Origin: Thermoanaerobaculia bacterium
GTDB lineage: Bacteria; Acidobacteriota; Thermoanaerobaculia; Multivoradales; JAHEKO01
Length of the DNA: 64,000 nucleotides
Reading direction: 5' to 3'
Assembly (NCBI GenBank): GCA_947259925.1
Contig: CAMYOG010000041.1
Location: 62,001-126,000, forward strand
Below are positions 2,985 through 64,000 of the stretch, one piece after another. The position numbers and the translations under genes were made by a program. The notes beneath the pieces were generated by a model. It worked only from the letters and a program-made list of their open reading frames with translations. It searched no databases and had not been told where the DNA came from. Positions within the stretch are counted from its first letter, which is position 1; every line of letters begins with the position of its first letter.

Positions 2985-5420
2985 ATGATCGGCGAGAGCC
3001 TTGCGCACTACAAGATCGTCGAAAAGCTCGGCGAGGGTGGGATGGGTGAGGTCTACCTCGCCGAGGATCTGAAGCTCAAGCGGCGGGTCGCCCTCAAGGT
3101 GCTGCCACGGGAGGGATCGTCCGCCCCGGCGCAGCTCGAGCGGTTCCAGCGCGAGGCCGAGGCGATCGCCGCGCTCAGCCACCCGAACATCGTCACCATC
3201 CACTCGGTCGAACAGGTGACCTCGCCATCCGGCGAGTCGGTCCACTTCCTGACCATGGAGCTGGTCGAGGGCAAGACACTCGAACAGATCGTTCCGGCCG
3301 GTGGGCTGCCGCAGAAGAAGCTCTACGACGTCGCCGTCCAGATCGCCGATGCCCTGGCCGCGGCACACGCCAAGGGGATCACCCACCGCGACCTCAAGCC
3401 GACCAACATCATGGTCGGCGACGACGGACGGGTGGTCGTCCTCGATTTCGGTCTGGCCAAGCTGGCGGAGCGCGATCCGTCGCTGATGGTGACCCAGGCG
3501 CCGACCCAGGCGGTCACCCGGGAGGGCACGATCCTCGGTACCTATCCCTACATGTCGCCCGAACAGGCCGAGGGCAGGCCGCTCGACGCGCGCACCGACA
3601 TCTTCTCGTTCGGGGTCATCCTCTATCAGTTGGCGACCGGGGTACGGCCATTCCAGGGCGATACCTCGGCGGCGCTCATCTCTTCGATCCTCAAGGACGA
3701 AGCGGTCTCGGTCGAAGAGCTGAACACCGCGCTGCCGCGGCAGCTCGGTCGGATCGTCAGCCACTGTCTCGAGAAGGAACGCAACCGGCGCTTCCAGTCG
3801 GCGCTCGACGTCCGTAACGAGCTCGCCGCCCTGCGCCGGGAGGTCGAGTCGCACGAGGCCTCGGTGGCAATCCAGGCGTCGTCCGTCTCGCAAGCCCCCG
3901 CGCCCGAGAGCCGCCACCGCCTGATGCTCGTCGTGGCAGCGATCCTCGCCATCGTGGCGGTCGGGATGTTCCTGGTGCCCCGGTTCGCGAGCCGGCCCGA
4001 GACGCCGGACCAGGCGCCGATCTCTCGAGAAGCATCGCAGCCGACGGTGGCGGTCTTTCCGTTCCAGAACCTGACCGCCGATCCGGCGTTCGACTACCTG
4101 GAGCTCGCTGTCCCGGACGAAGTGACGACCGCCCTGAGCCGCGCACCCGGCCTCGCGGTGAGGCCGTTCACGACGACCGCCTCGTACTCCGCCGAGGTCT
4201 TCGATCCGGGCGCGGCGGGGAAGGCCGTCGGAGCGGCCAACCTGGTCACCGGCCAGTACTTTGCGGAGGGAGAGCGCCTCCAGATGACGCTGGAAGCGAT
4301 CGATGCCGAGACCAATCAGCTCTTCTGGCGCGAGAGCGTGAGTGGCACGACCGGTGATCTGATCGCCCTGCGCGCCCTGGTCGCCGAGCGAGTGCGGGAA
4401 GAGCTGGTCCCGAAGCTGGGCGCCGTCGACGTTTCGGGTGGCGGTACGGTGCCCTCGAACGAACAAGCCTACAACCTCTACCTGCGCGGGCTCGCGCAGG
4501 GGACCGACATCGATCCCAATCGTCGCGCGATCGCCATGCTCGAGCAGGCGGTCGAGCTCGACCCCTCGTACGCTCCGGCCTGGAACGAGCTGGCGGCCCG
4601 CTACTACTACGAAGGCAATTACGGCCTGGCGGGGAGCGAGATGTACGACGCGGCGATCGAGGCGGCGCAGCGCGCGCTCGCCCTCGATCCGAGCCTGGTG
4701 GGGTCCGCGATGCGGATCATCACGATCCAGGCGGAGACGGGCCAGCTGGAGGAGGCCTGGGACGAGGCGAGCCGGCTGCTGGAGAGGCATCCGGAGAGCG
4801 CCGATCTCCATCATGCGATGGGCTACGTGCTGCGCTATGCGGGTCTAGTCGATGAAGCGCTTCTCGAGTGCGAGCGCGCCCTGGAGATCGACTCGACGAA
4901 CCCGCGGTTTCGCTCTTGTGGAATCACCGCCTACCTCGTCGGCGCCTATGATCGCTCCGAGGTCTTTCTACAGCTCGACGGCACCACCCACATGTACGTC
5001 TCCAACATCACGATGCTGCGCGTGAGGCAGGGTCGCCCGTTGGATGGCCTCTCCATCTTGCGCTCAGAGCGCTCGGGCCTCTGGCACCTGCGCTATCTCG
5101 AGCTCTGCCTGGCCGACGAAGCGCCGGACGAGCGCGAGTCGCTGGCACAACGAATCGAGCCCGAGGTCTTCAGACAGCTCGACGGCGAGCAGCTCTACTG
5201 GACGGCGGCCTACATGTCCTACTGCGGCGAGCCGGAGCGCGCGGCTCGCCTGCTGAAGGGAGCGGTAGAGCGCGGCTACTGTTCGTACCCCCTGATCGAG
5301 ACCGATCCGCTCTTGGAGCCGGTCCGGGACTCGGGCGGCTATGCCGAGCTGCGCAGCGAGGCTCGGGCCTGTCACGAGCGCTTCCTGACCCACCGCGCGG
5401 CCCGAGCCGCCCAGCCGTAG
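2985..5420 (+). CDS. Serine/threonine protein kinase with C-terminal TPR region
   Basis: MIGESLAHYKIVEKLGEGGMGEVYLAEDLKLKRRVALKVL, HRDLKPTNIM, DFGLAKL; TM then TPR motifs. Start chosen at 2985 rather than the ORF-track 2721. Confidence 0.93.
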   Translation: MIGESLAHYKIVEKLGEGGMGEVYLAEDLKLKRRVALKVLPREGSSAPAQLERFQREAEAIAALSHPNIVTIHSVEQVTSPSGESVHFLTMELVEGKTLEQIVPAGGLPQKKLYDVAVQIADALAAAHAKGITHRDLKPTNIMVGDDGRVVVLDFGLAKLAERDPSLMVTQAPTQAVTREGTILGTYPYMSPEQAEGRPLDARTDIFSFGVILYQLATGVRPFQGDTSAALISSILKDEAVSVEELNTALPRQLGRIVSHCLEKERNRRFQSALDVRNELAALRREVESHEASVAIQASSVSQAPAPESRHRLMLVVAAILAIVAVGMFLVPRFASRPETPDQAPISREASQPTVAVFPFQNLTADPAFDYLELAVPDEVTTALSRAPGLAVRPFTTTASYSAEVFDPGAAGKAVGAANLVTGQYFAEGERLQMTLEAIDAETNQLFWRESVSGTTGDLIALRALVAERVREELVPKLGAVDVSGGGTVPSNEQAYNLYLRGLAQGTDIDPNRRAIAMLEQAVELDPSYAPAWNELAARYYYEGNYGLAGSEMYDAAIEAAQRALALDPSLVGSAMRIITIQAETGQLEEAWDEASRLLERHPESADLHHAMGYVLRYAGLVDEALLECERALEIDSTNPRFRSCGITAYLVGAYDRSEVFLQLDGTTHMYVSNITMLRVRQGRPLDGLSILRSERSGLWHLRYLELCLADEAPDERESLAQRIEPEVFRQLDGEQLYWTAAYMSYCGEPERAARLLKGAVERGYCSYPLIETDPLLEPVRDSGGYAELRSEARACHERFLTHRAARAAQP

Positions 5421-51361: not shown

Positions 51362-54300
51362 CTACGGCACGGTCAGCGACGGATCGAGGCCGATGTCGAC
51401 GAAGCTGTCGGGGCCGAACTCGACGCCGTTGTGGAGAATGACCGCGACGCCCGCCCGCAGCACCAGCTCGCCGTTCGGCCCCAACACCAGGTAGTGCTGC
51501 TGGAGCTCGATGGTGTTGCACGCCTCGTAGAACTCGGGCACGAGTACCACGCCGGGTCCGAGGATCAGGTCGATGCCGTCGGCGGCCATACAGACGCCGA
51601 TCACCAGCGTATCGGTCGCCTGGCCGCTGTTGCCGGAGGACGAGGTCAGGTCGCCCGAGACATTGACGAACGTACCGACCGAGAGGGCAACGACATTCAC
51701 CGCCACCGTGCAGGCCTCACCCAGCTCGACCGAGCCGCCGCTCAGGTCGATCGTCGTGCCTCCGGCCGGCGCACTGACCGTGCCGCCGCAGTCGTTGAAG
51801 ACCGCGGGATCAGGCGCTACGAAGAGTGGCGCCGGCAAGACGTCGGTGAAGGCGAGGTCGGTGGCCGGAATGTCGTTGACACCGTTGTCGATGGTGAAGA
51901 TCAGCCTGGTGGGCACGCCCTCGACGATCATGTCCGGCTCGAAGGACTTGACGAACAGTGGCGGTGAGTTGATCTCCAGGATCGCCGTCGCCGGCAGAGC
52001 CACCGGGACGCCGAGGATCTCGAGGTCTCCGGTCTCATTGAGATAGTCACCACCGGGAATGCCCAACGGCACCAGGAGATCGACCGAGAAGGTGCACGAT
52101 CCGCCCGGCAGCAGGTTGCCGCCGGTCATGATCAGCACCGAGGTGCCGCTGATCGACGAGCCGATGCCGCACGGCTCGGCCGGCAGACCGATCGCCTCGA
52201 GGCCCGGGAAGCCGATCAGGTTCAGGTCGTCGGCGAACGAGAGATCGGTCACCGATGCCGTTGGCGACAGGTTGACGATCGTGAAGGTCAGAATCGGGGT
52301 GCCGCCGGGGCTCGACGGACCGTCGAACTCCTTGGTGAACTCGAACGAGTTGATCAGGAGCTCGTCGCTGGCCGGCTCTCCGGTCACCGCCAGCCCTTCG
52401 ATCGTTCCGGTCAGTGACGAGGTCGTGTTGACGGCCGTGGTGCCGATCGGCAGTGGCGCCGGAACCTGGACGGTGAGGGTGAAAGAGCACTCGCCGCCGG
52501 TCAGGCTGCCGCCCGAGAAGTCGAGCAGACTGGTTCCGGTGAGAGTGCCGCCGCAGGAGCCGGTGTCGTAGGGCGGAACGCCTTCCAGACCGGCGAGCGC
52601 GGCGTCGAGGTCGTCGCTGAAAGCGAGGTCGCTCGCCTCGTCGAACGCACCCAGGGTGGCGATCGTGAACTCGAGGGTGACCTGGCCGCCCGGGATCACC
52701 GGGTCGTCGATGAACTCCTTGGTCAGCAGCAGCTGTCCGGTGGCCACGACCAGGTCGTCCTGGGCGTTCGGGAACGGCAGGGTGGTCGAGTCGATCACCC
52801 CCTCGAGGTCGCGGGTCCGATTGACGTAGTTGCCCGACGGGGTCGCGGCCGGGACCATCAGCTCGACCGAGAAGGTGCACGAGTCGTCGCCTTCCATGCC
52901 GGTCGGCGCGTCCAGGCTGCCGCCGCTGAACCGGAGCGCCTCGTCGATCGCCGGGGTCGGCGGGAAGGGGATCTCGGGGGCGCTGAAGATCTCGAGCAGC
53001 GATCCGGTACCGCACGGGTCGACCAGCGGCATCGGCGTGACCACCGTCAAGCCTTCGAGCACGTCCGGATCGAGCAGGTCTTCGAAGAAGATGTCCGAGA
53101 TCGGATCCGGGCTCAGGTTGGTGAGTGTGAACTCGAGCATGACCGTGCCGCCGGCGATCACCGGGTCGTCGACGAAGCTCTTGGTGAGGATCAGGCCGCC
53201 GACGGTCAGATCGTCTTCCGCCGGCAGCTCGGTGGTCTCGACGCCGAGCACGGTGGCCACCACGTTCGAGGTGGTGTTGGTGTGGATGCCAGCGGGCGCG
53301 TCCACCGGGACGAGCAGGTCGACGCTGAAGGTGCAGATCTCACCCGGCGCCAGGGTGGCACCCGAGAAGGTGAGCAGGGTGTCGCCCGCCGTGCCGACCA
53401 GGTCGCCGTTGCCCGGTCCGCAGACGTCGGCCAGCGGCAGCTGGCCAGCGGCCGCGGCGAGGCCCGCCAGTGCCGCCGCCAGATCGTCGGTGAACTCGAC
53501 GTCGACGGCGTCGCCGGGGGCGCTCGGGTCGTGCTCGAGGGTGAACTCGAGCGTCACCATGCCGCCCGGCTGGACCGGATCGGTGGTGAACTCCTTGGTC
53601 AGCCTCGGCGCGGCGACCAGGTCGAAGGTGTCGGTGGCCGGTAGGCCGGTGACCGGCGCGCCGTCGACCATCGCGGTGATCTCGTCGGTGGTGTTGACGT
53701 AGGTGCCGGTCCCGAGGCCGGTGGGAAGCGTCAGGGTGACGTCGAAGCTGCACGAGTCGCCCGCCATGCCGGCCGCGGACAGCAGGCCGTCGTTCAGGGA
53801 CAGGCCCTGGCAATCGGCACCGCAGGAATCGAGCGTGACCGATGAGCCTGCACCGCACGGATCGGCCCCCGGCAGCACGGCGGTGATCGGGAACGGCAGG
53901 AAGGCCGTGAGCTCGTCGAAGAACTCGACGTCGGTCGCCGCCGAGGTGGTGCTGGTGTTGGTGATGGTGAATCGGATCACGACGTCGTCGCCGGCGCCGA
54001 CCACCGGGTCGGGGTCGAGGGTCGCGGCGTCGAGGAATTCCTTGACCAGGATCGGGAAGGCGATCACCCGCAGATCGTCGCTCGCGGGGTCGCCGGTCTC
54101 GGTTGCACCGTCGATCGTCGCGCTGATCGAGCTGGTGGTGTTGGTGTGGATACCGGTCGCGGCGCCGACCGGCACCGTCAGCGTGACGCTGAAGGTGCAG
54201 GAGCCTGCGGCTGGCAGGTTGCCACCCGCCAGGGTCAGCACGTTGACCGGCTCGACGGTCAGGGTCGAGCCGGCACCGCACGGGTCGGTCGGCAGCGCGC

Positions 54301-57300
54301 CCGAAACGGTCAGGTCCGGGGTACCCGGAAGGACTGCGTCGAGATCGTCGGTGAACTCGATGTCGGTCGCCTCGAAGTCGCGGCTCGGGTTGTTGATGGT
54401 GAACTCGAGAGTCACGGCGCTACCCGGAGGTACCGGGTCGTCGGTGAACGACTTGACCAGGAAGCCCACGCGCACGTCGAGCTCGGCGGTGGCGAAACCG
54501 ACCGAGCCCGCGAAGATGGGCTGGGTGGTCAGCTCGCTGCTGACGTTCTCGTAGAGGTCGTCGCCCGCCGCGGTGACGTCGACGGTGACCGTGCAGGTCT
54601 CGCCCGCGGCGAGGACCGGGGAGCTGGGCAGGAAGCCGACAGCGCTGAGGGTGATGACACCGGTTCCCGGATCCGCCAGCAGAAAGGCCGGACCGGATGT
54701 GCTCTCGCAGTCGGTCGCCGCGTTCGACGGCGTCGCGATGATCAGGCCGGCGGGGAGGATATCGGTGAAGTCCAGATTGCCGACGTCCGAACCTCGTCCG
54801 GCGGCCGACAGGTCGACGAGGAAGGTGAGCGTGCTGGTGCCGCCCGGCGGGATCGTCGCGGGCGAGAAGCTCTTCGAGAAGCCCGGCAGGTCGGCGTCGA
54901 CGATCAGGGTCGCCTCGGCGAAGCCGCCGCTGCCGGCGGTCGAGGTCAGCTCGTCGGAGACGTTGTCGTACTCGCCCGGCGCCGCTGCGGTGACGTTGAC
55001 CGTGACCGTGCAGGTGGCGCCAAGACCCAACCGCGCTCCGGTGAGGCTGATCGTCGTACCGCCGTCGGGGGCGGAGAGGACGCCGTCGGTGCAGTCGGTG
55101 AAGGCGCTCGAGGGGGTCGCGATGACGACGCCCGGGGGCAGAACGTCGGTGAACGTCACCTGCTCCGCGAGGGCGCCCGAATCGAGGTTGGCGATCGTGA
55201 ACTCGAGCTGGGTGGTGCTGCCCGGGCCGATGGTGTCCGGCCAGAAGACCTTCGAGAAGTCGATCGGCGGCTCGATGACGAGATCGTCCTCGGCCGGGTC
55301 GCCGACGTCGAGGCCCCCCTGGGCGAGCGCGCTGGTGGTGTTGGTGAAGGTCCCGAACGAGGCTTCGCTCGGCACGTCGAGGCTGACCGTGAACATGCAC
55401 GAGTCGCCCGCCGACCCGGCCGCCGCCAGGCTGCCATCGACGAAGACGATGGTGCTGCCGCCATCGAAGGTGGTCACGGTGCCACCGCACGCCGCGAACG
55501 GCAGCCCGCTCGCGACCAGGCCCGGGACCACCGACTCGAGATCATCGGTGAACCCGAGCATGTCCGCCGCGGTGGTACCGAGGTTGGTGAGCGTGAAGGT
55601 CAGGTCGACGCTGTCGCCGGCCTGGACCGGGCCGTCGAACGCTTTTTCCAGGGTCAGGAAGCCGAGACGGAGCGTGTCGGTGGCCGGGTCGCCGACCACG
55701 GTCGGACCCTCGCCGAAGAGAACGCCGGTGATCTGGCTCGTCTGGTTGAACGCTTGGGTGCCGACCGGCAGGGAGGGCACGCTGAGAGTGAGCTCGATGG
55801 TGCAGCTCGCACCACCTGCCAGGGAGCCGCCCGCGTAGTCGAAGAGCCCGGTCGGGAAGCCCGCGGCCATGCCGCCGCAGGTGTTGGTCGGGGCGCCGGT
55901 CGCCTCGAGGCCCTCGAGCGCTCCCTCGAGGTCGTCGGTGAACGCGATGCCCTCGATCGGGTCGTCCGGATCCAGGTTGGTGATCGTGAACACCAGGGTG
56001 GCCGTGCCGCCAGGCGGCACCGGGTCGTCGGTGAACTCCTTGGTGAACAGGAGGAAGACATTGTCGACCACCAGGACGTCGGTCGCCTCGTCGAACGCGA
56101 TCGGCGTCGGCATGTCGGCCTCGAAGCCCGGGACACCCTCGTCGCCCGTGGTGTTGACGTAGGTTCCCGACGCCGCCCCGAACGGCACGTCGAGCAGCAC
56201 GCTGAAGGTGCACATCTCTCCCGGCGCCAGGGTGCCGCCCGAGAAGAGCATGAAGGTATCCCCGGCAGACCATTCGACGGTGCCGTTGCCCGGACCGCAG
56301 ACGTCCGTGACGGTCGATCCGTCGAGAGCGGTGATGTCGGGCGAGCCACCGAGGATGGTCGCCATGTCGTCGCGGATGGTGATCGCCGTCGCGGTCAGGG
56401 TCGGGTGGACGTTCTCGATCACGAACTCGAGCGTGACCAGCTCGCCGGGGATCACCGGGTCGTCGAGGAACGCCTTGGTCAGCTCCAGGCCGTCGATCCT
56501 GAGATCGTCCTCGGCCGGGTTGCCGCTCACTCCGGCCACTCCGTCGACCGTCGCGGTGACCGCCGACGTCGTGTTGGTGTGCGCTCCGGGCCCGGCGGCC
56601 GTCGGTACCGACAGCGTGACCGAGAAGGTGCACTCCTCTCCAGGCGCCAGCACGCCGCCCGAGAAGTCGAGCAGGCTGGTGCCCGACAGGGTACCGGTGC
56701 CGGGATCGCCACCCGGGCCGTCCGGATCGCACGCCTCGGTGAGCGGCAGCCCGACCGCGGCGAGGCCGGCGATCGCCGGATCGAGTGCCGCCAGATCGTC
56801 GGTGAAGGCGATCGCGGTGGCGTCGCCGGGGGCCGCCTCGTCGTGGCTGAGCGTGAACTGGAGGGTCGTCGTACCGCTGGGCGCCGCCGGGTCGTCGATG
56901 AACTCCTTGCGCAGGGTCGGTGCGCCGAGGATCTCGAGGTCGCCGCTGACCCCGGGTGCGGTAAAGGGGGCCTCGAAGAAGTCCAGGAGCCCGGTGACGT
57001 CGCCGGTGGTGTTGGTGTAGACCCCGGCGGGCGTGCCCGCGGGAATGTCGAGCTCGACCTCGAAGGTGCACGAGTCTCCGGGCATCGCGGCCGGCGCCAG
57101 GGAGCCGCCGTCGAAGACCAGGATCGTCGGATCCGGTGGCGTGATGATGACGATCATCCCGATGATGATGTCCGGGGGATTGAAGACGGTGATTCTCGAG
57201 CCGTCGCCGCAGACGTCGAAGATCGGATCGTCGTTGTTGCCGGCCACCAGGCTGTTGGCGGCGAGTCCAGGCAATGCGGTCTCGAGGTCGTCGTCGAACG

Positions 57301-59821
57301 CGATGTCGCTGGTCGCCGTGAGCGAGCTGGTGTTGGTGAGGGTGAACTCGAGCGTCACCGTGCCGCCGGCGGGGGCCGGATCGTCGGTGAACTCCTTCGT
57401 GACGGTCGGGACCAGGTCGACCACCAGTTGGTCGGTCGCCATGTTGCCGACCACACCCTCGCCGTCGATCGTCGCGGTGATCGCGCCGGTGGTGTTGGTG
57501 AAGGTGCCCGCGCTGGCCCCCGCGGGCACCAGCAGCTCGACGTCGAACTGGCAGGAGTCGCCCGGTCCCAGGCTGCCGCCGGTGAGACTCAGCTCGCCCG
57601 TACCGGCCACGAACGCCAGCGACGAACCCACGCCGCACGGCTCCGACGGCAGCGGGCCGCCCGGCGCCAGGCCGGTGAGCGAGCCGAGCGGGTCCAGGTC
57701 GTCGGTGAAGGCGATCGAGGTCGCCGGGAAGTCGCGATCCAGGTTGGTGACGATGAAGCGCAGGTCTACGGTGCCGCCAGGCGCCACCGGATCGTCGAGG
57801 AACGACTTGACCAGGAACTCCACCGGGACGTCGAGGGAGGCGGTGGCGAAGCCGCTCGACCTCATGGGGTCGTTGGTGAAGGCGGCCTCGCTCAAGAGGT
57901 CGCTCGAGGTGTTGAAGAAAGTGCCGTTGAGGGTGGCGGTCACATCGACCGCTACCGTGCAGCTCGAGCCGGCCGCGAGAGGAGTCGGAGATATGGCCGT
58001 GAACGAGATTCCGTTGGCGACCGGGTCGCCCCCACCCTCCTGCGACGAGATAACGCTCACCACGCCCCCCGGGCAGTCGGTGAAGGTGTTCGCCGGTGAG
58101 GCGATCTCGAGGCCGGCGGGCAGCAGGTCTTCGAACAGCAAGCCGAAAGCGGGGCCGGCGTTCGCGGTGTTGTCGACCGTGAAGATCAGCCGGCTGGTTC
58201 CCAGAAGCGGGATCGAGCTCGGCACGAACTCCTTGCTGAAGCCCGGCCGCCCTCCCTCGACGGTCAAGTCGTCCGTCGCCGGACCGCTGTTGCCGGTGCT
58301 CGAGGTGAGGTCGCCGGAGACGTTGGTGAACGGTCCTTCCCCAGGGGTCGAGGAGGCGACGTTTACGCTGACTGTACAGGTCTCGAAGGCGCCGACCCGC
58401 CCGAACGTCAGGCCGATCGTCGAGCCGCCAGCGGGCGCGTCGAGGATCGCGCTGCCGCCGCAGTCGGTGACCGCGCTCGCCGGGTCGGCGATCGTCAGGT
58501 CGGCCGGCAGCGTGTCGGTGAAGGTCAGAAGATCGGCCGGGGCCGCGTTGGTGGAGTTGTCGATGAGGAAGGTCAGGGCGGTGGTGCTGCCCGGACCGAT
58601 GGTGTCGGGTACGAACGCTTTCGAGAAGAGGACGCCGGACTGTGCGGTCGTCGTGTTGACGAAGGTGCAGGTGATCTCCTCGCCGGCGGAGAGATCGATG
58701 TTGTCGGCAGAGCCCTGGGTGCAGTCGGCGGACTCCAGCATCCAGTCCATCGGCACGGCCTCGGCCACGTCGTAGACCCCGGGCAGAAGAAAGACCTCGA
58801 AGGGCGGATCCTGGTCGGAGAGGCTGAAGGCGATCGGCGGCGATTGGACGCTGAACTCCAACTGGGCTTCATCGAGGTCGAAGTCGAACACTGTCGGGTC
58901 GCCGACCGGCTGGGTCTGCTTGTCGACGATCAGCTTGCCGCCCTGTGAGTTCTGGAACGTGCAGGTCACCGTCTCGGTGCCGTCGAGGACGATGGTGGCG
59001 GTGCCGGCACCGACGTCTGTGAGCGAGTTCTCCGTGGGATCCGCGCAGCCCAGAGCGGTCAACAGCCAGCCCTCGACCGGGGCCTCGGTCACAACATAAG
59101 TGCCAGGCGTGAGGGGCGTGAAGGTCTCGGAGCTCGGCAGCGTTTCGTCGCTGTCGGTATCCAGATCGAAATCGCCCAGGTCACCGCTGAAGCTGAAGTC
59201 CTGTGCCTGGAACCCCGGCACCGTCTCTTTGACGATCACGATGGTCTGGGCTTTGGCGACGGTCCCGGTGACGAGGACCAGGGGCAGCAGAAGCGAGATC
59301 AGGCGCCGCCGACCGCTGCTAGCGGAGGCGCCAGGCGCTTTTCCCAGTATCCAACTACCGGCCGCCAACAGCAGTCCGAGGAGCAGCGCGAGGGCCCAGG
59401 CGGGCGTCGCCGGAGCCATCGGCAGGGTGCAGTCGGCCACGGTCGCGGTGATCGCGTCGCCCTCCGTGCCTCCGATAGGCGGCGTGCCGGGGGTGTTGGT
59501 GACCGAGAGCACGACGGTGGCGCCGACGGTGAGCGCGGCAGGGACGGTGAAGGTGAACGTCTCGTTCACCGCCGTGAAGGTGTTGGTGTTGCCGGTGCCG
59601 AGCAGGGTCGTGCCGGTCGCGTCCCAGACCTCGGCGGTCATCGGGATGCCGACGGAGGAGGCGGCGGTGGTCTGGCCGTCGTAGATGGCGCCGTCGGTGC
59701 AGACCGTCTCGCTGCCGGCGACGACGTCGAACGAGTGGGCCCGGACGTCGGCGAGCAGGGTGCCAGCGGCGAGCACGGGACCGACCAGGATTGTCAGAGC
59801 AAACCGACGGAAGTTCTTCAA
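51362..59821 (-). CDS. Giant exported DUF11-like repeat protein (2819 aa, about 17 repeats)
   Basis: Repeats of KEF.DDPV.PGGTVTLEFTLTN...FTDDL...GLP...CG...SGG.LAPGE.CTFSV.L.VP...NTT; signal peptide; internal IPTL-CTERM-like TM near residues 135-160. Confidence 0.92.
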   Translation of the reverse strand: MKNFRRFALTILVGPVLAAGTLLADVRAHSFDVVAGSETVCTDGAIYDGQTTAASSVGIPMTAEVWDATGTTLLGTGNTNTFTAVNETFTFTVPAALTVGATVVLSVTNTPGTPPIGGTEGDAITATVADCTLPMAPATPAWALALLLGLLLAAGSWILGKAPGASASSGRRRLISLLLPLVLVTGTVAKAQTIVIVKETVPGFQAQDFSFSGDLGDFDLDTDSDETLPSSETFTPLTPGTYVVTEAPVEGWLLTALGCADPTENSLTDVGAGTATIVLDGTETVTCTFQNSQGGKLIVDKQTQPVGDPTVFDFDLDEAQLEFSVQSPPIAFSLSDQDPPFEVFLLPGVYDVAEAVPMDWMLESADCTQGSADNIDLSAGEEITCTFVNTTTAQSGVLFSKAFVPDTIGPGSTTALTFLIDNSTNAAPADLLTFTDTLPADLTIADPASAVTDCGGSAILDAPAGGSTIGLTFGRVGAFETCTVSVNVASSTPGEGPFTNVSGDLTSSTGNSGPATDDLTVEGGRPGFSKEFVPSSIPLLGTSRLIFTVDNTANAGPAFGLLFEDLLPAGLEIASPANTFTDCPGGVVSVISSQEGGGDPVANGISFTAISPTPLAAGSSCTVAVDVTATLNGTFFNTSSDLLSEAAFTNDPMRSSGFATASLDVPVEFLVKSFLDDPVAPGGTVDLRFIVTNLDRDFPATSIAFTDDLDPLGSLTGLAPGGPLPSEPCGVGSSLAFVAGTGELSLTGGSLGPGDSCQFDVELLVPAGASAGTFTNTTGAITATIDGEGVVGNMATDQLVVDLVPTVTKEFTDDPAPAGGTVTLEFTLTNTSSLTATSDIAFDDDLETALPGLAANSLVAGNNDDPIFDVCGDGSRITVFNPPDIIIGMIVIITPPDPTILVFDGGSLAPAAMPGDSCTFEVELDIPAGTPAGVYTNTTGDVTGLLDFFEAPFTAPGVSGDLEILGAPTLRKEFIDDPAAPSGTTTLQFTLSHDEAAPGDATAIAFTDDLAALDPAIAGLAAVGLPLTEACDPDGPGGDPGTGTLSGTSLLDFSGGVLAPGEECTFSVTLSVPTAAGPGAHTNTTSAVTATVDGVAGVSGNPAEDDLRIDGLELTKAFLDDPVIPGELVTLEFVIENVHPTLTATAITIRDDMATILGGSPDITALDGSTVTDVCGPGNGTVEWSAGDTFMLFSGGTLAPGEMCTFSVLLDVPFGAASGTYVNTTGDEGVPGFEADMPTPIAFDEATDVLVVDNVFLLFTKEFTDDPVPPGGTATLVFTITNLDPDDPIEGIAFTDDLEGALEGLEATGAPTNTCGGMAAGFPTGLFDYAGGSLAGGASCTIELTLSVPSLPVGTQAFNQTSQITGVLFGEGPTVVGDPATDTLRLGFLTLEKAFDGPVQAGDSVDLTFTLTNLGTTAADMLGFTDDLESVVPGLVASGLPFAACGGTVTTFDGGSTIVFVDGSLAAAGSAGDSCMFTVSLDVPSEASFGTFTNTTSALAQGGLDVGDPAEDDLVIEPPIDFSKVFWPDTIGPGSTTQLEFTIANLDSGALAEQVTFTDVLPPGVVIATPSSAFTDCTDGVLSAPDGGTTISLTGARLGLGATCTVTVNVTAAAPGEYDNVSDELTSTAGSGGFAEATLIVDADLPGFSKSFSPATIPPGGTSTLTFLVDLSAAGRGSDVGNLDFTDILPAGLIIATPSNAATDCESTSGPAFLLADPGTGVITLSAVGFLPSSPVLAAGETCTVTVDVTAAGDDLYENVSSELTTQPIFAGSVGFATAELDVRVGFLVKSFTDDPVPPGSAVTLEFTINNPSRDFEATDIEFTDDLDAVLPGTPDLTVSGALPTDPCGAGSTLTVEPVNVLTLAGGNLPAAGSCTFSVTLTVPVGAATGIHTNTTSSISATIDGATETGDPASDDLRVIAFPILVKEFLDAATLDPDPVVGAGDDVVIRFTITNTSTTSAATDVEFFDELTAFLPFPITAVLPGADPCGAGSSVTLDSCGADCQGLSLNDGLLSAAGMAGDSCSFDVTLTLPTGLGTGTYVNTTDEITAMVDGAPVTGLPATDTFDLVAAPRLTKEFTTDPVQPGGMVTLEFTLEHDPSAPGDAVDVEFTDDLAAALAGLAAAAGQLPLADVCGPGNGDLVGTAGDTLLTFSGATLAPGEICTFSVDLLVPVDAPAGIHTNTTSNVVATVLGVETTELPAEDDLTVGGLILTKSFVDDPVIAGGTVMLEFTLTNLSPDPISDIFFEDLLDPDVLEGLTVVTPMPLVDPCGTGSLLEIFSAPEIPFPPTPAIDEALRFSGGSLDAPTGMEGDDSCTFSVELMVPAATPSGNYVNRTRDLEGVIDSTTLPFPNAQDDLVVATGQLLLTKEFIDDPVIPGGQVTLEFTIATLGAFDEASDLAFSDDLDAALAGLEGVPPYDTGSCGGTLTGTSLLDFSGGSLTGGECSFTLTVQVPAPLPIGTTAVNTTSSLTGTIEGLAVTGEPASDELLINSFEFTKEFDGPSSPGGTPILTFTIVNLSPTASVTDLSFADDLNLIGFPGLEAIGLPAEPCGIGSSISGTSVLIMTGGNLLPGGSCTFSVDLLVPLGIPGGDYLNETGDLEILGVPVALPATAILEINSPPLFVKSFEPDMIVEGVPTRLIFTIDNGVNDIPATDLAFTDVLPAPLFVAPDPAVFNDCGGTVSAPAGGTTIDLSGGSVELGEACTVAVNVVALSVGTFVNVSGDLTSSSGNSGQATDTLVIGVCMAADGIDLILGPGVVLVPEFYEACNTIELQQHYLVLGPNGELVLRAGVAVILHNGVEFGPDSFVDIGLDPSLTVP

Positions 59822-59969: not shown

Positions 59970-61934
59970 TCACTCCGAGGCCGCTCGCAAGCCCCAGTCC
60001 CACAGGGCGATGCTCAGTGGACGAGTGTCGCCGTTGTCCAGCAGGTCATCGGCGACCGTGGGCGGCTCCGAGCTGCGCAGACGCAGGACCTGGCGCCCGC
60101 TCGCCAGCCACAGCGGTCCGACCGCGTGAGCGACGAGATCCGGACCGACGACCAACCCTCCGACGGGCCGATTCGCCAGTGCCAGCTCGATCCGTCGTGG
60201 GTCGCCGAAGGCGGTGAGCTCGAGCTCGAGAGTCGCCCAGAGGCCCTCGCCGGTGCGGTTCTCGAGCCACAGCTGGCCCTCCGCCGACATCCATCGGTAG
60301 GTCTGCTCCCCTTTGAACTCGCGCCAGTGGAAGCCGGGGCCGACGAGCACGGTCAGAGGGGCGGGAGGCGCCTCCACCGCGAACACCAGGGAGTCGTCGA
60401 AACGCTCCACCTGCCTCAGTCCCTCGGGCGGGTCGCGATCCGACAGCCAGGCGCCGAGCGGCCCGGTCCGACGCACCAGCACGTGGTCGAAGTCCTCGGC
60501 GGCGAGCCGGCCCGGGAAGTCGGGAGCGGCACAGTCCTCGTTGGGGCGGAGCAGTCCGAGCGGCCGCCCGAGGAGTCGCGGCAGCCGAGCGTGGATCGGA
60601 TCCGACGCCGGGACGCAGTCGAGCGCCCGGATGGCAGGCGGTTGCTCCTGGAGCCAGCGGTGGGCCGCGGTCGGCAGGACGTGGCGCCAGCGCCAGGGCG
60701 GTACGGGTGCCAGCTCGACGGCTGCGACCACCAGCAGCAGGGCGGCGAGGCGGCGCCGGCGACCGCCCGCTCCCAACAGTCGATCGGTCCCCAGGCCGGC
60801 CAGGATCGCCACGGCCAGGATCACCATCAGGCCGAAGCGAGCGTGGGCGCGAAACATCGGTAGCAGGGCGTAGAGCGCGGCGGTGGGGCGGGGCAGTGTC
60901 CACGAGCCGAGCCGCCACTCGGGTCCGAGTGAGAAGAGGAAGCAGACCAGGGCGATCGCCGCCAGCGCCGGTACCGCCCAGTCGCGCTGCCGCGAGCGCG
61001 TCCAGTGCCAGAGTGCCGCCGCGGCCAGGGCGAGGGGTGCCCATCCGAGGGTCAGCTGCTGCTCCACGACGCCGTCGGCGAGCCGACCCTGGGCCCAGAT
61101 CGCCGACGCCCAGCCGCCGAGGAGCGGATGCTCGACACTCGGAAGCAGGTAGCTGAACCAGCGGGCGGAGTAGTGGAAGAGGTCCTCGCGCGGGAAGGCG
61201 AGGCTCCCCGGCCGCGACAGAACCGCCGGCGCTCGCCCGGCCAGGTAGGCTGCTCCCACCCCTGCCGATGCCAGCAGTGCCGCCGAGCTCACGACCAGGT
61301 TGCGCCCGCGCCCGGGGTCTCGAGGCGCCCATAGCCACCACGCCGCTAGCGCACAGGGCGTGACGACGGCCGCCAGCAGGGCGCCGTAGAAGTTGGAGAG
61401 GGCGAGGACCGCCGCCGTGGAGACGAGGAGGGCCAGCCGGCCGACGCTCGGCCGTTCGAGGGATCGCCAGAGCACCAGTAGGTAGAGGGGCAGCCACTGG
61501 GTCTGGGCGATGTGCGGGTGGTAGGCGGCGTGCGCGAGATGGAAGGGTGCGAAGGCGTAGAGGAAGGCCGCCACCCAGGCTCCGGGCAGCCGCGCTCCCA
61601 GATGGCGCGCGAGCAGGAACGTGAACAGCGCCGTCAGCGGAAACGTGACCAGTACCAGCAGGTTGTAGGCGGCGACGCCGTCGCCGAGGAGGGCGGCGAG
61701 TAGCCGGCCCGGGTAGTCGGTGGCCGGCTGCGCGTAGATTCCAGGTGGCGCCGAGCCCTCGAGCTGGACGATGACCGTGTAGGGATCGTGGTGCCGCCCC
61801 ACGATCTCGTTGCCGAACAGCCGCGACGACGGGGCGACGAGCACCGGAGCCGCCAGGATCAGGGTCAGAATGCAGGCGGCGCAGGTCACTCCTGCGGGCC
61901 CCGACAGGCCGCGACTACTCTCTTGGGCGGTCAT
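59970..61934 (-). CDS. Multi-TM GT-C/YfhO-like membrane protein
   Basis: Many TM segments; APFHLAHAAYHPHIAQTQWLPLYLLVLW; soluble C-terminal domain. Confidence 0.75.
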   Translation of the reverse strand: MTAQESSRGLSGPAGVTCAACILTLILAAPVLVAPSSRLFGNEIVGRHHDPYTVIVQLEGSAPPGIYAQPATDYPGRLLAALLGDGVAAYNLLVLVTFPLTALFTFLLARHLGARLPGAWVAAFLYAFAPFHLAHAAYHPHIAQTQWLPLYLLVLWRSLERPSVGRLALLVSTAAVLALSNFYGALLAAVVTPCALAAWWLWAPRDPGRGRNLVVSSAALLASAGVGAAYLAGRAPAVLSRPGSLAFPREDLFHYSARWFSYLLPSVEHPLLGGWASAIWAQGRLADGVVEQQLTLGWAPLALAAAALWHWTRSRQRDWAVPALAAIALVCFLFSLGPEWRLGSWTLPRPTAALYALLPMFRAHARFGLMVILAVAILAGLGTDRLLGAGGRRRRLAALLLVVAAVELAPVPPWRWRHVLPTAAHRWLQEQPPAIRALDCVPASDPIHARLPRLLGRPLGLLRPNEDCAAPDFPGRLAAEDFDHVLVRRTGPLGAWLSDRDPPEGLRQVERFDDSLVFAVEAPPAPLTVLVGPGFHWREFKGEQTYRWMSAEGQLWLENRTGEGLWATLELELTAFGDPRRIELALANRPVGGLVVGPDLVAHAVGPLWLASGRQVLRLRSSEPPTVADDLLDNGDTRPLSIALWDWGLRAASE

Positions 61935-62761
61935 CCGCGGGCGGTCGGGCGGACCTCGGGTCGGACGGCGACCGCCGCGATGAGATAGCCGTGGCGCCTC
62001 AGCCCCGGGAACCGCCGCGAGAGCGCGGCGAAGGGCTCGAGCGCCAGGCGCGTAAGCCGGGCGAGCGGCCGGAGCCAGACCCAGCAGGCCAGGTCGAGCA
62101 TCCGGAGCCAGCCGGGCATGAACAGGATGCCGGTCTCGTCGTGTACCTCGAAGCCCGCACCGCGGCAGAGCTCGCGCAGGCCGGTGCGCGTGAACGACCT
62201 TTCGTAGCCGTAGTCGTAGAGACCCAGGCGCTGGAGCACCCAGGCCAGGAGCGGCCGCAGAAACGGGTCGAGCCGGTTGGGGACTCCGATGATCGCGCGC
62301 CCGCCCGGCTTCAGCACCCGGTAGATCTCGCGTATGGCGACGGCGCTATCGTCGAAGTGCTCGACGGTGCCCATCGAGTAGACGGCGTCGAAGCTGCCCT
62401 CCCGGTAGGGAATCGCGCGCACGTCGGCGACCACGCCGGAGAGGTGCAGCGATGCGGCATCGAAGCCCATCCGCGCCGCCCTGGCGATCGGCTCTGAGAT
62501 GTCGATACCGGCGCAGCGAGCGCCGCGCGTCGCCGCCCAGCGCAGGATGCGAGTGTTCTTGGCCTCGTCCCAGAGGTCGGTCTTGAGGATCCTGGCGCCC
62601 GCGAGTGGCTCCAGGTGCTCGCGAAAGAGGCGGCGCTCGTCCTCTCGGTAGATCGTCGTGCTGAAGGCGCCGCCGAGATCGGGGAAGCTGTCGCCGACGC
62701 CGGTCCAGAAGTCGCGGTAGGCGGCGGCCTCCGGGTTCGGAGCGCTCGGACGCTCGGTCAC
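61931..62761 (-). CDS. Class I SAM-dependent methyltransferase
   Basis: ADVRAIPYREGSFDAVYSMGTVEHFDDSAVAIREIYRVLKPGGRAIIGVPN; GTG start at 62761. Confidence 0.9.
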   Translation of the reverse strand: MTERPSAPNPEAAAYRDFWTGVGDSFPDLGGAFSTTIYREDERRLFREHLEPLAGARILKTDLWDEAKNTRILRWAATRGARCAGIDISEPIARAARMGFDAASLHLSGVVADVRAIPYREGSFDAVYSMGTVEHFDDSAVAIREIYRVLKPGGRAIIGVPNRLDPFLRPLLAWVLQRLGLYDYGYERSFTRTGLRELCRGAGFEVHDETGILFMPGWLRMLDLACWVWLRPLARLTRLALEPFAALSRRFPGLRRHGYLIAAVAVRPEVRPTARG

Positions 62762-64000
62762 GGTTGGGGCACGGGCTGCGGCTCGTTCGACTCCGGGGGC
62801 GAGAGTCGCGACAGGGCCCAGACCAGCAGCCGGGGTATGGCCAGTGCGGCGCACCGGATCACTACCACGTGGATCTCCACCGAGAGCTGACGGGCGGCGG
62901 CCAGAACCGCGACCAGCGCGACCTGAGAAGCGAGCAGGGTCGCGCAGGCGAGCGCCACTCGCCGTCCGGTGAAGCGACTCCAGCCGACCGCCCAGAGCAG
63001 CGCAGCGAAGAACCCGATCTGGAATGCGGGCAGGAGCACCAGGGCGCCCTGGGGGTCCGCCCAGCCGAGCCCGGCCTCGAGCCGGGATTGGGCGGCGGCC
63101 TGTATCGTCACTGCCAGCGCCGTACCGACCGCGACCGCCCCGACCGCCCGCCACCCGCGGCCCGTCCGGCCGGGGTCGGTGGCGAGGTGGGCGGCGATCG
63201 CCACCACGACCAGGGCGGCCAGGATCTGATAGAAGGCGTGAACCGCCACGAACGGCGAGCCGATCAGGCTGGGCGGGAGCGCCACCACGAGCAGCCGCGC
63301 GGTGGCCAGCGCCAGGAAGAGTGGGACCGCACCCAGCAGTGCCAGCAGTCGCGACCGTGCCGAACCGGCGAAGAGGATCACGCCGGCCAGATAGACCGGG
63401 AAGAGCGGCGTCGCGACGCATTCGCCAGAGATGATCCACCTACCCTGTTCGGTTCTGAGCAGGGAGTCGAACACCTGTGCCTCGACGCCGATCCCATTGA
63501 GGAGCCAACCGGCGACCCGTGCCGAGCTCCGCGCCGCCGCCAGGATCCAGTCGCTGCGCAGGAGCGCTGGCAGGGCCGCGTAGTAGAGACCGACGAGAAT
63601 CGTGGCGAGGCCGAGGAAGCGCCAGATGGCGGCCGGCTCGTAGTGGAGAGCCGGCCGGGATGCGGACGTCGCCGGAGGCGGCTCCCGAGTCGCCCACCGC
63701 ATCCAGGTCACGACGTAGCCCGCTGCGGCCAGGATCAAGACCGCCGGCCAGACGTAGAGGTGGAGCAGCCGGAACAGGTCCACCTGGTCCACGATCAGGG
63801 CGAGGCTGCCGATCCTGACGGTGTTCAGGAGGCTGATGACCACGAATCCCAGAGCGCATCCAGCCAGGCGACGGCGCCAGGTCGTGGGGAAGGCCAGGAT
63901 CGCGCCGAGGCACAGCGCCAGGGCGTCCGAGCCGGTACAGCTCTCATTGACGATGACCGAGTTTTTGGGTGCACCGGTGAGCGCACACGCGAAGTCGAGC
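62758..64000 (-). CDS. Exosortase-family membrane protein with two exosortase-like modules (5' end outside window)
   Basis: Frame open to window edge. Module 1 NESCTGSDALALCLGAILAFPTTWRRRLAGCALGFVVISLLNTVRIGSLALI...FRLLHLYVW; module 2 GWLLNGIGVEAQVFDSLL...ISGECVATPLFPVYLAGVILFAGSARSRLLALLGAVPLFLALATARLLVVALP...AVHAFYQIL. Confidence 0.82.
   Translation of the reverse strand, partial: LDFACALTGAPKNSVIVNESCTGSDALALCLGAILAFPTTWRRRLAGCALGFVVISLLNTVRIGSLALIVDQVDLFRLLHLYVWPAVLILAAAGYVVTWMRWATREPPPATSASRPALHYEPAAIWRFLGLATILVGLYYAALPALLRSDWILAAARSSARVAGWLLNGIGVEAQVFDSLLRTEQGRWIISGECVATPLFPVYLAGVILFAGSARSRLLALLGAVPLFLALATARLLVVALPPSLIGSPFVAVHAFYQILAALVVVAIAAHLATDPGRTGRGWRAVGAVAVGTALAVTIQAAAQSRLEAGLGWADPQGALVLLPAFQIGFFAALLWAVGWSRFTGRRVALACATLLASQVALVAVLAAARQLSVEIHVVVIRCAALAIPRLLVWALSRLSPPESNEPQPVPQP

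Follow-up and report, generated by a model that had tools for sequence, protein, structure and literature searches.

The gene at the edge of the window (the whole stretch of 64,000 nucleotides that was analysed) encodes an exosortase-type membrane enzyme, in which two complete catalytic modules are carried by one polypeptide. Exosortases are enzymes that remove sorting tags from surface proteins. The best explanation, to which we give moderate credence, is that of a dedicated XrtH-related exosortase, in which a canonical module 1 is joined to a second competent module 2 and to a third membrane module, and which probably uses an acceptor made by the products of its own operon.

In the initial annotation, the reading frame had been described as running off the window edge, and its extension upstream had been proposed. 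The frame is indeed open at this edge and continues for 161 bases into this genome's contig C41, which gave the full N-terminus of a protein of 467 amino acids. The start is a GTG codon at position 4161 of locus L001 (window-equivalent 64161), and it shares bases with the stop codon of the gene that precedes it. Along the chain, two homologous exosortase modules are followed by a C-terminal four-helix module, and this gene is the only exosortase match in the genome. The positions of the gene and its parts are as follows:

62758..64161, minus strand: tandem exosortase gene, from open reading frame and sequence; the window part, 62758..64000, encodes residues 54-467, with the stop codon at 62758-62760
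63667..64000, minus strand: module 1, canonical XrtH-like exosortase unit, residues 20-165 (first part beyond the window), from NCBIfam, HHalign and invariance in the tandem proteins
63937-63939, 63814-63816 and 63760-63762, minus strand: codons of the module 1 triad, C75, R116 and H134, respectively
63172..63636, minus strand: module 2, diverged exosortase unit, residues 176-330, from HHalign to single exosortases and to module 1, and from its invariant triad
63418-63420, 63295-63297 and 63238-63240, minus strand: codons of the module 2 triad, C248, R289 and H308, respectively
62794..63162, minus strand: module 3, residues 334-456, with four predicted helices and no detectable similarity to modules 1 and 2

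All the motifs first noticed in the sequence were recovered at these places. The full triad claimed near the edge corresponds to C75 (NESCTG), R116 (LLNTVRIG) and H134 (LLHLYVW), and that of the second unit to C248 (GECVATPL), R289 (ATARLLVV) and H308 (VHAFYQIL). When residues 1-168 were scanned alone, they scored 52.9 bits with TIGR04178, the signature of the exosortase/archaeosortase superfamily, whose cut-off is 23; the whole protein scored 50 bits. The nearest curated model of module 1 was XrtH (TIGR04177), with 70.4 bits, a score under its cut-off of 86. Compared with single exosortases by HHalign, module 1 gave E=1.8e-28, and it keeps both the glycine two positions after the cysteine and the asparagine three positions before the arginine. 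It is likely that module 1 performs the canonical tag cleavage.

The assignment of the second half required more sensitive comparisons. No match to Pfam, Exosortase_EpsH (PF09721) included, was obtained with the whole protein, and none of the curated exosortase models, TIGR04178 included, was passed by residues 169-467 scanned alone. It had been stated at the outset that the idea of two units would fall if only one half scored against exosortase models. The second half does score, though far under the curated cut-offs: its best E values were 0.003 (XrtX) and 0.005 (ArtB), in alignments that span most of both models. The idea therefore survived only narrowly on these models, and it took the profile-profile comparison to make the exosortase identity of module 2 firm. 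When module 2 was compared by HHalign with 26 single exosortases of related genomes, the alignment covered 151 columns at E=1.9e-11 and paired the Cys, Arg and His of one side with those of the other; the score was 72.3, whereas the top score of 60 column-shuffled versions was 20.5. Modules 1 and 2 matched each other with E=6.6e-8. Furthermore, in a joint alignment built without reference to the triads, the three residues share columns in 31/31 sequences of module 1, 32/32 of module 2 and 26/26 single exosortases, and the spacing of the Cys, Arg and His/Arg catalytic residues typical of the superfamily is present in both modules. The proposal of two exosortase-type units in one polypeptide is confirmed by this profile comparison and by the register of the triads.

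Module 2 forms a long branch and diverges widely outside the triad. At its cysteine, the motif is C-x-x-T-P/A-L, compared with C-T/S-G in canonical units, and the glycine two positions after the cysteine and the asparagine three positions before the arginine, both seen in canonical units, are lacking. It has invariant residues of its own, namely T251, L253, P255, F310 and Q312. All six triad residues are invariant across the 32 tandem proteins, one sequence being truncated ahead of C75. Since the triad never varies in a module that otherwise changes fast, module 2 is likely to be catalytic as well, as judged from its sequence.

In order to place the two triads with respect to the membrane, an AlphaFold2 model was built from 15 sequences (mean pLDDT 79); it superseded a model from 6 sequences (pLDDT 65). 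According to the helix list of this model, in both modules the cysteine lies just ahead of a helix, the arginine near the end of the next one and the histidine a few residues into the following one, and the basic loops sit on the side opposite the triads. From these equivalent helix-end positions and from the basic loops across the membrane, both triads presumably face the same, presumably outer, side. The helix order of the model is compatible with triad residues that lie near each other on the outer face of the membrane. No relative and no solved exosortase structure were found by sequence or by fold in the copies of the PDB that were searched, the fold search giving chance matches only.

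The initial annotation had mentioned neither the C-terminal module nor the operon and the likely substrates. The C-terminal module contains the invariant residues D369, Q371, R436 and P443. The first three of these sit at the ends of helices and, in the prediction, on the membrane face to which the triads also point. A third exosortase unit was considered, as the helix order is alike and the invariant Gln and Arg stand roughly at the places of Cys and His. However, this identity is not claimed because the sequence similarity of module 3 stays within the shuffled range.

A parallel orientation of the two units, as predicted here, is also what would be needed if the protein were an internal pseudodimer, in which module 2 is mainly a structural or regulatory partner and its triad is kept for folding or for substrate positioning (exosortases might act as dimers). 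The long branch of module 2 and the loss of the canonical neighbours of its motifs are in line with such a role, which we regard as the main rival, a real though lesser possibility. On the other hand, the triad of module 2 is invariant in 32 proteins despite wide divergence elsewhere, and such full conservation speaks against a second half with a structural role only.

The favoured reading of a dedicated two-site exosortase draws on the genes around it, which lie in the order AdoMet decarboxylase, tandem exosortase, methyltransferase and PF10131 protein, with overlaps of a few bases, followed by a gene for a DUF11-like protein:

L001 4158-4553, outside the window: AdoMet decarboxylase-like gene, overlapping the start of the tandem exosortase
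61931..62761, minus strand: class I methyltransferase (Methyltransf_11), whose start overlaps the exosortase stop (GTGA)
59970..61934, minus strand: PTPS_related (PF10131) multi-pass membrane protein, a possible lipid-linked sugar transferase, overlapping the methyltransferase end
51362..59821, minus strand: DUF11-like repeat surface protein of 2819 amino acids, 148 bases after the PF10131 gene
59306..59422, minus strand: mid-protein sorting-tag-like segment of the DUF11-like protein, PMAPATPAWALALLLGLLLAAGSWILGKAPGASASSGRRR, near residue 134 and followed by a second hydrophobic segment

Of 15 tandem loci, 13 have a close homologue of the methyltransferase nearby, 10 have the decarboxylase and 9 the PF10131 protein. 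No homologue of the three was detected at 37 single-exosortase loci within 1.5-kb flanks; as these loci include repeats of one gene and their flanks are shorter than the stretches taken for the tandem genes, the contrast is only indicative. The methyltransferase homologues at the tandem loci share about 58-62% identity and are better conserved than the exosortase. A fusion occurs in one relative (G006), where a single open frame of 739 residues (L024 7959-10175 / L003 658-2874) joins the tandem exosortase and the methyltransferase. The decarboxylases retain the ESH motif, which is the motif of self-processing in such pyruvoyl enzymes. In Haloferax volcanii, cleavage by archaeosortase A needs PssA and PssD, the presumed source of an amine-bearing lipid through which the cysteine thioester is resolved (PMC7157517). 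By analogy, the AdoMet decarboxylase and the methyltransferase-like enzyme may prepare an acceptor. Both systems link a thiol sorting enzyme to genes for a putative amine acceptor, a decarboxylase among them (PMC7157517); archaeosortase A, however, has a single module, and the decarboxylase at the tandem locus acts on AdoMet and not on a serine lipid. In several Thermoanaerobaculia loci (L025 3784-5879, L082 10269-12239, L026 9440-11448), von Willebrand-like proteins with a DTSGTM motif and DsbA-like thiol proteins were seen after the tandem gene.

Candidate substrates are encoded next to the tandem genes. An ice-binding-like PF11999 protein is the neighbour of the tandem gene in seven genomes (G296, G310, G221, G345, G398, G158 and G450, the last being the genome of L029). 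Of the 15 tandem genomes, 7 encode PF11999 proteins and all 7 have one adjacent to the tandem gene; eight of the nine copies are at the tandem locus. These seven neighbours end in C-terminal tags of the IPTL/VPTLP type, for example VPTLPEWAMITLSLLLALAGAFAMRSRG and PVPTLPQWGALLLAAGLLGLGYLRLRRR; two of them score above the IPTL_CTERM model (TIGR04174, cut-off 20.5), with 30.8 and 22.8, and two just below. No PF11999 protein was found in the window's genome, and the IPTL model search of that genome matched no tag; the controls of that search gave no match either. A strict regular-expression scan of the rest of contig C41, of the window and of several relatives gave one C-terminal tag, in L026 only, and carries little weight because the strict pattern missed known tags.

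In the window itself, the DUF11-like neighbour is a probable substrate of the tandem exosortase. Its candidate mid-protein tag scores under the known models; in a homologue from another genus (G016), a clear PVPTIP tag, PVPTIPGGGLLLLALMLLAGGAVLLARRSRG, stands at the same place. In both the window (59222-59821, minus strand) and L061 (1459-2076, plus strand), the N-terminal domain of the large repeat surface protein ends in the tag-like segment, after which comes a second hydrophobic segment resembling a signal peptide, as if one open reading frame held two exported proteins. A tag inside a protein is not new in itself, because mid-protein XrtH signals are already listed in NCBIfam as Midcut-by-XrtH (NF033207). 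The DUF11-like neighbour is arranged like these known XrtH-linked proteins, yet it stays under the cut-off of 45 bits: the window protein gave no match and its homologue reached 8.7 bits. It was also considered whether mid-protein tags are the reason for having a tandem enzyme. This idea found no support, since a full-length homologue with such a tag is present in only 2 of 15 tandem genomes and mid-cut proteins are already tied to ordinary XrtH. Matches to NF033207 number 0-2 per tandem genome, whereas genomes with a single-type exosortase in that order have 4-19, which suggests that the tandem exosortase has few, dedicated substrates.

Thus, starting from the observed elements, namely two homologous modules, conserved triads, an operon and tagged neighbours, the following course can be proposed for a dedicated two-site enzyme. 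Both exosortase units, joined in one chain, would lie on the outer side of the cytoplasmic membrane. There, C75, aided by R116 and H134, would cleave the tripartite tag of the IPTL/VPTLP type, the substrate being held as a thioester. Module 2 would provide a second catalytically competent site with an altered pocket, which would most likely serve either a further step or another scissile site of the same small set of substrates. The AdoMet decarboxylase, the methyltransferase-like enzyme and the PF10131 protein would probably build the acceptor, perhaps an amine-bearing one, by which the thioester is resolved. Against this explanation stand the scores of module 2 under the curated cut-offs, the loss of the canonical Gly and Asn, and a natural or assembly variant of one metagenome-assembled genome (G522, L130 1390-2787), in which module 2 has lost R289 through an in-frame deletion. 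The lack of a PF11999 protein in the window's genome and the candidate tag there, under the model cut-offs, are further points against it.

A bolder form of this reading and a different division of labour between the modules were also weighed. In the bolder form, the sites would act in sequence on one substrate: after module 1 has cut the tag, module 2 would carry out another acyl transfer or cut again, for instance beyond the hairpin of a mid-protein tag, and the neighbouring enzymes would build the acceptor from decarboxylated AdoMet. We consider this improbable; if true, a two-step processing reaction would be done by one membrane enzyme. Also improbable is that each module reads a different tag and so serves its own class of substrates, as the differing motif surroundings of the two modules could suggest. 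The tags in tandem genomes are few (0-2 XrtH mid-cut matches, against 4-19), and those adjoining the tandem gene are all of one IPTL/VPTLP type; such few and uniform tags argue against two specificities.

Of the known systems, XrtH, the IPTL-CTERM exosortase, resembles the tandem enzyme in being the nearest model of module 1, in the C/R/H triad, in the helix plan and, in relatives, in the IPTL-type tags of neighbouring proteins. The tandem enzyme differs in its score below the XrtH cut-off, in having two modules and a third membrane module, in its operon and in its few dedicated substrates. To our knowledge, the moiety attached to substrates by bacterial exosortases has not been established. 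Because it combines a canonical site with an altered but fully conserved one, has few substrates and lies in a fixed operon which names candidate acceptor-making enzymes, the tandem enzyme offers a tractable system for finding out which moiety an exosortase attaches and whether the enzyme acts as a dimer. A search of the open literature for fused or double exosortases found nothing relevant, an earlier mention being possible; the protein seems to be a so far undescribed variant within a known enzyme family.

At least 32 distinct tandem proteins, from at least 32 species of Acidobacteriota, were counted by combining an alignment-based scan of the GTDB collection with searches of the phylum and the class. 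A genome-wide scan with the single protein gave no match, its peptide patterns being too specific, and the alignment query was used instead; by this query, the hosts are Thermoanaerobaculia, with further members in Vicinamibacteria, one of them on a chromosome record of 6.1 Mb. Five full-length tandem homologues from relatives of the same family show 42-51% identity, and in most tandem genomes a single exosortase match is present. That two adjacent exosortase genes were wrongly joined by assembly or annotation is hardly credible: most sequences do come from metagenome-assembled genomes, and in one of them the frame is broken in the linker, but such an artefact is contradicted by the conservation of the architecture, which is uninterrupted in 32 species, one of them represented by the 6.1-Mb chromosome-level record (L028). 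The broken frame (G587, L131, about 2193) is a frame change in the linker between the modules; as a second start in this linker is unconvincing, it is probably a sequencing error or a recent frameshift.
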